Source: Clostridia bacterium
Lineage (GTDB): Bacteria > Bacillota > Clostridia > Oscillospirales > CAG-272
Reading direction: 5' to 3'
NCBI GenBank assembly: GCA_017503105.1
Contig: JAFVTS010000035.1
Span: forward strand, 91,717 to 155,716
DNA length: 64,000 bases
The position numbers and the translations under genes are program-made. Shown in pieces: positions 12,902 through 56,932 of the stretch. How positions within the stretch are numbered: position 1 is the stretch's first letter; every line of letters starts with the position of its first letter. The notes beneath the pieces were generated by a model, which saw nothing but the letters and a program-made list of their open reading frames with translations, ran no database searches and had not been told where the DNA came from.

Positions 12902-12930
12902 TTTACAAATTTTGAAAACGGTGCTATAAT
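12902..12930 (+). promoter_or_regulatory. Promoter for structured RNA copy A
   Basis: TTTACA (12902-12907), 17-bp spacer, TATAAT (12925-12930). The predicted transcript starts at about 12937, exactly where the closing helix of the RNA begins. The same hexamers and spacing precede copy B. Confidence 0.75.
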
Positions 12931-12936
12931 AAATAT

Positions 12937-13137
12937 GCCAAACTAATCAAATAATGTGATGCAACATATTTTCACACAAATGGAGTATGATGTTTTTTTG
13001 CTTTTATATGCACAAAATGAATTTGATAAAATGCAAATTTCGCTTTGTGCATATGGATACTCCTATTGGCAATGATTAGTTTGGCGACTATCGAAGTTTG
13101 CGTTTTTGTGCGTCGACTTCGGTTGGCGCACTTTTTA
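12937..13137 (+). ncRNA. Structured leader RNA / candidate riboswitch, copy A
   Basis: About 200 nt between the promoter and the AbrB gene. The 5' end GCCAAACTAATCA (12937-12949) pairs perfectly with TGATTAGTTTGGC (13073-13085), closing the domain. Inside are GGAGTAT/ATACTCC and an inner hairpin of TATGCACAAA with TTTGTGCATA. A U7GCUUU block (12993-13005) and ATACTCCTATT (13057-13067) recur in copy B at 56556-56769. After the closing helix, 13090-13097 can pair with 13116-13123, which would disrupt the terminator at 13108-13136. This is promoter, folded sensor-like domain, antiterminator/terminator, then gene: riboswitch layout. A 6S-like trans-acting RNA is an alternative. I do not recognise it as a named family. 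Confidence 0.65.
13108..13136 (+). terminator. Terminator of RNA copy A with cUUCGg tetraloop
   Basis: GTGCGTCGAC and GTTGGCGCAC pair over 10 bp (three G-U) around TTCG, then five T. It sits 6 bp before the AbrB ribosome binding site, so the gene is expressed only on readthrough. Confidence 0.75.
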
Positions 13138-13152: not shown

Positions 13153-13377
13153 ATGAGAAAGGTGGACAAGCTCGGAAGAATAGTTATACCGATGGAGCTC
13201 AGGCAAAAGTACGGTCTTTTCGAGGGGGCAAGCATAGAATTTCTTGATTCGGGCGACGGAATTACAGTCAAATCTTCGGCACCCACGTGCAAGCTGTGCG
13301 GCAAAGCGATCTCTGCCGACGCCTCGATCCCGCTCTGCGAAAAATGCATTTGCGACGTGAGAGAGACTGCGCGATAA
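13153..13377 (+). CDS. AbrB-type DNA-binding protein with C-terminal C2C2 zinc ribbon
   Basis: 74 residues from ATG 13153 behind GCGGAGGGG; the longer frame upstream runs through the leader RNA and is not used. Residues 1-42 are a SpoVT/AbrB swapped-hairpin domain (RKVDKLGRIVIPMELR). Residues 46-65 form C-x2-C-x12-C-x2-C (CKLC ... LCEKC), likely a zinc knuckle. A paralogue with identical Cys spacing is at 61665-61895. AbrB-like proteins are transition-state or global regulators binding DNA as dimers. Its expression depends on readthrough of the terminator ending RNA copy A. Confidence 0.88.
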   Translation: MRKVDKLGRIVIPMELRQKYGLFEGASIEFLDSGDGITVKSSAPTCKLCGKAISADASIPLCEKCICDVRETAR

Positions 13378-56329: not shown

Positions 56330-56536
56330 CTATTTTGTAGTATTATCTTTACTTGCAGCAATATTTTTTTCTTTGATTTGAACATCAAATTCGGGAAAGC
56401 AAAGCAGAAAGTAATCACACTCGTCGCAACAACACTCAAAACCTTGCTCGCCGTTACCAAGACAAACGGTAGGGTTTCCCGGCGTAAGCTCAATACCGGT
56501 AATGTCCATGATCTTTTCTTGAATGTTCTTGTTCAT
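56330..56536 (-). CDS. Small Cys-rich protein downstream of structured RNA copy B
   Basis: 68 residues from ATG 56536, with TGGAGGATAT upstream; the longer frame crosses the leader RNA and is not used. Cys at 25, 35, 36, 37, 40 and 46 (FECCCDECDYFLLCFPE) suggests a zinc or iron-sulfur site; the rest is hydrophilic. I do not recognise a family. Like the AbrB gene at 13153-13377 it is a small Cys-motif gene placed immediately after a copy of the same RNA, so both may belong to one regulon or system. Confidence 0.7.
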   Translation of the reverse strand: MNKNIQEKIMDITGIELTPGNPTVCLGNGEQGFECCCDECDYFLLCFPEFDVQIKEKNIAASKDNTTK

Positions 56537-56554: not shown

Positions 56555-56586
56555 TAAAAAAGGTGCGCAACCGAAGTCAGCGCACC
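56555..56586 (-). terminator. Terminator of RNA copy B with UUCG loop
   Basis: On the minus strand GGTGCGC and GCGCACC pair, extended by GAC-TTCG-GTT after a one-base bulge, then six U. It resembles the copy A terminator (13108-13136) closely and lies 18 bp before the coding ATG. Confidence 0.72.
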
Positions 56587-56769
56587 GAAAAACACAAACC
56601 CCGATTGTTGTCACACAAACTAATCGGAATAGGAATATTTCAGCCATACCTAAATTAGAGGGGCTTGCGTTTTTGCCACGTCCATAAATTTAGGTATGCC
56701 CAAAAAAGGGTATAGTATCCCTAAAGCAAAAAAATACCCCTAATACCGATTATTCAGTTTGTGTGACAA
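56556..56769 (-). ncRNA. Structured leader RNA / candidate riboswitch, copy B
   Basis: About 213 nt on the minus strand. The 5' end TTGTCACACAAACT (56756-56769) plus AATCGG pairs with CCGATT-AGTTTGTGTGACAA (56608-56627), a 20-bp closing helix with a 4-nt bulge. An inner hairpin of CATACCTAAAT with ATTTAGGTATG lies inside. Blocks shared with copy A are GATTAGTTTG in the closing helix, U7GCUUUA (56722-56734) and ATATTCCTATT (56628-56638). After the closing helix 56598-56606 can pair with 56569-56577 (antiterminator) against the terminator 56562-56586. The antiterminator differs from copy A by A-U to G-U changes that preserve pairing. Confidence 0.65.
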
Positions 56770-56773
56770 TGTT

Positions 56774-56802
56774 ATTATATCACATTTTTTGCGGTTTGTA
56801 AA
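56774..56802 (-). promoter_or_regulatory. Promoter for structured RNA copy B
   Basis: Minus strand TTTACA (56797-56802), 17-bp spacer, TATAAT (56774-56779), the same hexamers and spacing as copy A. Confidence 0.75.
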
Positions 56803-56890
56803 TAGTTTTAGTGAATTTTACAAAATTACCTTTAAAAAAGCAGAAAAATCCGTGGAGGCACGGATTGCCGTGACGGAGGATTGTAAAAAC
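56803..56890. other. Intergenic stretch without a supported gene
   Basis: Mostly A/T-rich. It holds ATCCGTG-GAG-CACGGAT-like symmetry near 56849-56867. A 63-codon plus-strand frame crosses it but has no ribosome binding site and runs into the terminator, so I see no gene. Confidence 0.5.
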
Positions 56891-56892
56891 TC

Positions 56893-56932
56893 AAAAATAC
56901 GGCATACCTCTTTTGAGATATGCCGTATTTTT
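56893..56932 (-). terminator. Terminator of the MATE/aldo-keto reductase operon
   Basis: AAAAATACGGCATA pairs with TATGCCGTATTTTT over 14 bp, with U runs for both strands. Confidence 0.8.

Follow-up and report, generated by a model that had tools for sequence, protein, structure and literature searches.

Pseudoknotted leader RNAs dispersed in genomes of Clostridia: a family of probable cis-acting transcription attenuators

Results and discussion

The 64,000-nt stretch of contig JAFVTS010000035.1 analysed here (the window), from a Clostridia bacterium genome (GCA_017503105.1), contains two RNAs on opposite strands, termed copies A and B. The first-pass annotation took B to be the same RNA as A in another copy, with an antiterminator, a terminator and pairing-preserving changes relative to A. 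This raises the question of what kind of element copy B is and what it does in front of its gene. The 199 distinct copies found in the loci that we collected bear out that the two belong together, and we consider it probable that copy B belongs to an extensive family of transcription attenuators that act in cis from 5' leaders in Clostridia.

Copies A and B

Copy B lies on the minus strand, and its position was confirmed when the coordinates were re-checked in the window. It is preceded by a putative sigma-A-type promoter (56774-56802) with the -35 hexamer TTTACA at 56802-56797 and, after 17 bp, the -10 hexamer TATAAT at 56779-56774. Transcription would start at about 56769, where the closing helix P1 begins with its 5' strand TTGTCACACAAACTGA (56754-56769). 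There follow the 5' strand of P2, AGGGGTATT (56733-56741), a small GGGAUACUAUACCC hairpin (GGG...CCC) and U6 that together make up an element of the long form (56702-56721), the 5' strand of the variable inner hairpin P3 (56687-56699) and the apical loop strand AAAAACGCAAGCCCC (56660-56674). The 3' strands of P3 (56643-56656), P2 (AATATTCCT, 56631-56639) and P1 (56608-56627, including GATTAGTTTG) close the domain, P2 and P3 being assigned by folding and a cis pairing test. Next comes a segment, S (56588-56607), in which two strands overlap, namely the pseudoknot strand GGGGTTTGTGTTTTT (56602-56588), which is the partner of the apical loop, and the antiterminator 5' strand CAATCGGGGT (56607-56598). 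The antiterminator 3' strand ACTTCGGTTG (56568-56577) overlaps the intrinsic terminator, GGTGCGC...GCGCACC with a U tract ending at 56556 (56556-56586). The downstream gene, on the same strand at 56330-56536, encodes a 68-aa cysteine-rich protein.

Copy A is on the plus strand (12902-13136 including the promoter). Its promoter (12902-12930) comprises TTTACA (12902-12907), 17 bp and TATAAT (12925-12930), P1 (12936-12949 with 13073-13085) and the inner helices occupy 12936-13085, and the apical loop strand AAAATGCAAATTTCG is at 13028-13042. Segment S (13089-13106) again combines a pseudoknot strand, CGAAGTTTGCGTTTT (13092-13106), with an antiterminator 5' strand (13089-13097), and the terminator (13108-13136) contains the antiterminator 3' strand (13116-13125). 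The gene that follows (13153-13377, plus strand) encodes a 74-aa AbrB/MazE-type DNA-binding protein with two CxxC pairs (PF04014, E 2.1e-8). Folding compared with 200 dinucleotide shuffles gave z scores of -7.27 for copy B and -6.05 for copy A.

Most of the likenesses between A and B given in the first-pass annotation were reproduced. The promoter hexamers and their 17-bp spacing are identical, the terminator and an ATA(C/T)TCCTATT block are common to both, and the antiterminator strands ATCGAAGT (A) and ATCGGGGT (B) face the same ACTTCGGT. The sequence shared by the closing helices, GATTAGTTTG, has three occurrences in the window where 0.17 would be expected, and the two strands of P1 in copy A account for two of them. 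A U7GCUUUA block, also said to be shared, is present in B; A reads U7GCUUUUA, and the two blocks are not aligned as homologous by MAFFT, so the likeness may be due to chance and we did not retain the block as a shared functional motif. Copy A is also devoid of the GGGAUACUAUACCC-U6 element found in B. The pairing of the apical loop with S was absent from the earlier description and was found in the present analysis.

The flank of copy B has features of its own. A stretch upstream of the promoter (window 56808-56833) is common to several copies from the genus (L002, L007, L017, L020, L024, L059), with CTCCCGGAAGGTAAT or a close variant in some copies and AAAGGTAAT in B, as if flank and RNA had spread together. 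Further upstream, a near-identical palindrome CGGCATACCTCTTT..GAGATATGCCG is found at copies B and C (window 56898-56929; L002 2128-2160).

Distribution of the family

With copy B as query, 5 places were found in the window's genome, and 29 of 59 genomes, the window's own included, contained matches. A search for further copies, with their downstream genes recorded, had been suggested as a check; when it was run with R1, a covariance model built from 40 sequences of the 3' module, it returned 10 matches in the window's genome, one of which (L208) has an altered terminator. In order, class and phylum samples that overlap and include the window's own genome, R1 matches were present in 153 of 394 genomes of the order (82 of 168 genera; E up to 0.001), 76 of 291 genomes of the class (48 of 181 genera; E up to 1e-5) and 1 of 199 genomes of the phylum sample (E up to 1e-5), the last being the window's own genome. 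A single genome has up to 16 matches. A pattern scan of named genome contigs yielded at least 118 stretches. The 118 listed are all from metagenome-assembled or uncultured material, their titles referring to Clostridia, Clostridiales, Oscillospiraceae, Ruminococcus, Tyzzerella or unclassified assemblies, and many of them name a herbivore host. By criteria set by eye, 189 of the 199 distinct copies are full length; all were found through similarity to B or through a pattern containing S, a procedure that favours a conserved S.

In another of the 10 matches in the window's genome (L206, C31 near 53202), S-like and terminator sequences occur without P1 or the conserved loop upstream; this may be an attenuator whose sensor has been lost or replaced.

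Tandem copies were observed as 8 pairs in 7 loci, with 51-103 nt from a terminator to the next P1; the loci are L157 (three full-length copies, minus strand), L062, L133, L148, L102, L084 and L078. Each tandem copy has its own promoter and terminator, which a leader does not need, and this counts against a plain leader.

Architecture of the leader

The typical order of elements is a sigma-A-type promoter, P1, variable inner helices, the conserved apical loop, S, a UUCG-type terminator and usually a start codon. The promoter class and the start of transcription are predicted from hexamers and distances. In 72 of 75 copies, the best hexamer just upstream of P1 matches at least 5 of the 6 positions of TATAAT. 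The spacer length is 17 in 65 of these 75 copies, and P1 starts 4 to 6 nt past the -10 hexamer in 65 of 75. Given this near-fixed distance between the -10 hexamer and P1, together with the spacer, the RNA probably starts with P1.

Variation within helices was assessed on alignment A4, which holds 63 of 74 distinct sequences (L007, L034, L039, L041, L049, L051, L054, L057, L058, L060 and L074 were left out); alignments A5 and A6 hold 40 of 62 and 36 of 47 selected stretches. A test for covariation had been suggested in the first-pass annotation; on A4, both sides have changed at all 12 pairs of P1, where 98.8% of cells are paired, and at 7 of the 9 antiterminator pairs. P2 and P3 vary widely in sequence among copies, with pairing kept within each. 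In the first 60 of 121 non-redundant long-form copies, cis scores were 27.6 for P2 and 28.9 for P3, compared to 17.0 (sd 0.54) and 16.2 (sd 0.49) with the partners of other copies. The earlier statement that the inner hairpins differ in sequence and nevertheless pair, which could not be proved from A and B alone, is thereby borne out over these 60 copies.

A GGG...CCC-U6-type pattern is present in 74 of the 121 long-form copies. The short form, represented by 17 of 138 non-redundant copies, lacks about 40 to 50 nt ahead of the loop and, in the rows displayed, does not contain this element. Conserved bases are found beyond the proposed pairs as well, with GGY ahead of the loop strand in 155 of 189 copies and a linker motif in 171 of 189.

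Two partners for segment S

The apical loop consists of GGYAAAAAYGC followed by a variable part and is complementary to S, just before the terminator. The resulting pseudoknot would comprise about 15 bp with a nearly invariant AAAA:UUUU end, and the distance from the start of the loop to the end of S is 63 to 107 nt. The best upstream partner of S was a strand starting with AAA in 75 of 77 scored copies; the search landed elsewhere in L026 and L061, and one copy of 78 had too little sequence. The copy of L067 at 2026 is a poor one that scored weakly in this search. On A4, both sides have changed at 9 of 14 pseudoknot pairs, and double-change cells number 73 against 16.9 in shuffled alignments and 17-38 with slid partners. 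The mean cis score was 31.7 against 27.6 for permuted partners (sd 0.39; maximum of 2000 permutations 29.0) in 75 of 78 copies, L023 having too little sequence and L026 and L061 no loop partner. A second set of 33 distinct copies (L209-L242), from 8 genomes outside the window's family and absent from the alignments, gave 28.6 against 26.2 (sd 0.55; maximum of 5000 permutations 28.1). Short-form copies have quite different S segments, and their loops match accordingly. The shuffle and permutation controls do not fully remove the relatedness of the copies, and the shuffle counts are therefore not true probabilities.

RNAalifold, which cannot model pseudoknots, gave no loop:S pairing and predicted a different, short local hairpin for S. 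A conserved local apical hairpin instead of the pseudoknot is not supported, as only 67.2% of cells pair, though individual copies can form one.

The second partner of segment S is the 5' half of the terminator together with its loop, and this pairing constitutes the antiterminator. Here double-change cells on A4 number 19, compared to 4.8 after shuffling and 3-10 with slid partners. The fraction of paired cells exceeds that of shuffled alignments by a small margin (91.7% vs. 88.2%), in part owing to the UUCG hairpin, which keeps these bases conserved. The cis score was 24.2 against 22.0 for permutations (sd 0.30; maximum 23.0) in the 75 copies, and 20.3 against 18.6 (sd 0.42; maximum 20.4) in the second set, where at least one of 5000 permutations lay above the cis mean (20.39 vs. 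20.27). In L228 and L220, from another family, unusual terminator loops are accompanied by a matching S; in L229 and L240 the match between terminator loop and S is poor. Sequence variation hence speaks for P1 and the pseudoknot, and less strongly for the antiterminator. Median energies over 75 copies are close, at -18.1 kcal/mol for the pseudoknot, -16.6 for the terminator and -15.5 for the antiterminator state. The pairings of S with the loop and with the terminator overlap, so that they exclude each other. Variation and energies together point to an intrinsic terminator with a mutually exclusive antiterminator, more weakly for the latter than for the other helices.

The conservation of loop and S is such that a loop also fits the S of other copies: trans pseudoknot scores are near cis (27.5 vs. 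31.7), and for the median S, 17 of 74 other loops outscore its own. With up to 16 matches in one genome, terminated leaders or another RNA could in principle pair with the loops or S segments of other copies and so couple a set of genes. Such trans base-pairing attenuation is improbable in our judgement, as pairing within a copy is the better one, with pseudoknot scores above all permutations in both sets, which trans action does not need, and a cis partner would have a large advantage in concentration.

Downstream genes

Of 177 copies (12 of the 189 were omitted as too near the locus end), 138 are followed within 70 nt of their terminator by a start codon that has a ribosome-binding-site-like motif, at a median distance of 21 nt. 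On the divergent side such a start is present in 16 of 171 cases, and at random positions in 134 of 885. Most copies thus hold the position directly before a gene that is expected of an attenuator. The 68-aa cysteine-rich protein encoded after copy B has no Pfam match at E up to 0.01. Among 40 genomes of the genus, 12 contain a total of 17 matches to it, and the RNA module is located directly upstream on the same strand at 16 of these 17 homologues, the exception being the weakest match. In the window's genome, three genes for such cysteine-rich proteins carry long (B, C) and short (L207) forms of the RNA. In L249, L252 and L253, homologues of this protein have one or two internal stop codons, with the module still upstream.

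These associations bear on whether the RNA might instead be a stand-alone small RNA, with the terminator as its 3' end, that binds a protein, RNA polymerase or other RNAs, the genes being controlled separately and having become neighbours by duplication. The promoter and terminator of each copy, the 8 tandem pairs in 7 loci, the 39 of 177 copies for which no start is recognised in the 70 nt that follow and the many loops fitting the S of other copies would all agree with it. The 138 copies followed closely by a start codon, against so few on the divergent side, and the module at nearly all homologues of one protein speak for a leader instead; moreover, the antiterminator, whose pairing is preserved through sequence changes, would be useless in a plain small RNA. 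We regard the small RNA as unlikely on balance. Because tandem copies are unexplained by a plain leader, such a role nonetheless keeps some weight beside the cis-acting attenuator.

The Pfam search, run on 65 of the 68 downstream proteins found, yielded 7 LRR_5, 5 MazE/AbrB, 3 Flg_new and 3 SHOCT proteins, the rest belonging to other families or none; a single downstream pathway was considered and dropped in view of this mixture. A recurring gene type combines an AbrB/MazE-like domain with a small cysteine-pair tail (window 13153-13377; L028, L041, L043, L050, L067, L220). Among 129 distinct downstream proteins of at least 60 aa, a lipobox-like motif occurs in 30 and a hydrophobic N-terminus in 58, compared to 40 and 107 of 442 background frames; the rules for both traits are crude, and the background consists of open frames of at least 250 aa, some of which are not genes. 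The downstream genes thus appear diverse and enriched in envelope-type proteins, as judged from their predicted products.

Known families and mobile elements

Rfam 15 had no match at gathering score in the window. In 16 further loci it gave 8 matches at E up to 1, two tRNAs above and six matches below the gathering score, none of them over the RNA. Known Rfam families, including c-di-GMP-II, T-box and 6S, were set aside for want of a covariance-model match over the RNA. No description of this RNA was found in the literature searched or in passages of PMC8040213, a study with 3161 candidates among which an unnamed entry may exist.

Several known systems are similar in design, the comparison being by Rfam. 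The c-di-GMP-II riboswitch and other second-messenger riboswitches of Clostridia likewise have a pseudoknotted leader, terminator control and several copies before diverse envelope genes, whereas here the long pseudoknot itself would take up the antiterminator strand, there is no Rfam match, and no ligand or aptamer is assigned. T-box leaders share the 5' position and exclusive terminator and antiterminator helices; the present RNA has no Rfam match at the thresholds used, and its downstream proteins in the Pfam search are not of one amino-acid pathway. In the copy-control attenuators of plasmids pT181 and pIP501, a segment is similarly contested by an upstream loop and a terminator; a search of the plasmid collection with copy B was negative, and the likeness concerns the contested segment. 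6S RNA is also about 200 nt in length, with a long closing helix and internal loops, but the RNA described here has no Rfam match and many copies per genome, is usually followed by a gene and has an antiterminator pairing. Type III toxin-antitoxin RNAs such as ToxI place a pseudoknot RNA and a terminator before a small gene, while the present RNA is not a repeat array and is followed by diverse proteins. There is no ToxN-type toxin among 25 of the 30 Pfam families of downstream proteins; a type III system, defined by tandem RNA repeats before a ToxN-family toxin, was rejected, the downstream proteins being heterogeneous.

Dispersed copies with inverted-repeat ends, some of which share sequence upstream of the promoter within the genus, could also represent a palindromic DNA repeat of the REP or MITE kind, spreading together with its promoter and terminator and playing no part in regulation. 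A search of 72,556 plasmid and 50,697 phage records with copy B, however, was negative at E up to 0.01. The near-fixed distance from promoter to P1, the orientation of copies towards genes and the conserved association with one gene also argue against such an element, and it is strongly disfavoured by the pairing counts, with double changes in three pairings; we consider it very improbable. In viral contigs, the 3' pattern had no matches; the loop pattern matched 6 contigs, and the 3' module was absent from all of these at E up to 0.001. On these results and the plasmid and phage searches, we rejected a phage or plasmid element as the usual carrier.

Proposed mechanism and implications

We propose the following model for cis-acting attenuation. 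A sigma-A-type promoter would start the RNA at P1, and the hairpin domain (P1, P2 and P3) would display the conserved apical loop. As S emerges, it would have two rival partners, the loop on the one hand and the 5' half and loop of the terminator on the other. If the loop captures S in the pseudoknot, no strand would be left for the antiterminator, so that the UUCG terminator would form and the gene would be off. If the loop is unavailable, S would form the antiterminator before the 3' arm of the terminator exists, and the gene about 20 nt further on would be transcribed. A ligand, protein, RNA or physical signal would act on the hairpin or its loop. The comparison of copies establishes the architecture, the pairings with their preserved variation, the exclusive overlap at S and the position before genes; from these we infer the order of events, the ON/OFF sense and the action of a signal on hairpin or loop.

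By its sequence features the RNA would class as a terminator-controlled leader RNA, a known kind, of a family undescribed in Rfam 15. We do not call it a riboswitch, a term that calls for direct binding of a small molecule. More tentatively, and with rather less confidence than we place in attenuation as such, the family might constitute a class-wide orphan riboswitch class whose expression platform is unusual, in which one signal common to gut Clostridia, acting through capture of the antiterminator strand by the loop, sets dispersed envelope and small regulatory genes.

The family provides a defined gene set, a search model and a three-way pairing that is testable by compensatory changes. 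If the cis-acting attenuator is the right reading, many gut Clostridia share an RNA device that controls envelope proteins and small regulators from up to 16 places per genome, and knowing its signal would show which cue in the gut matters to these bacteria.
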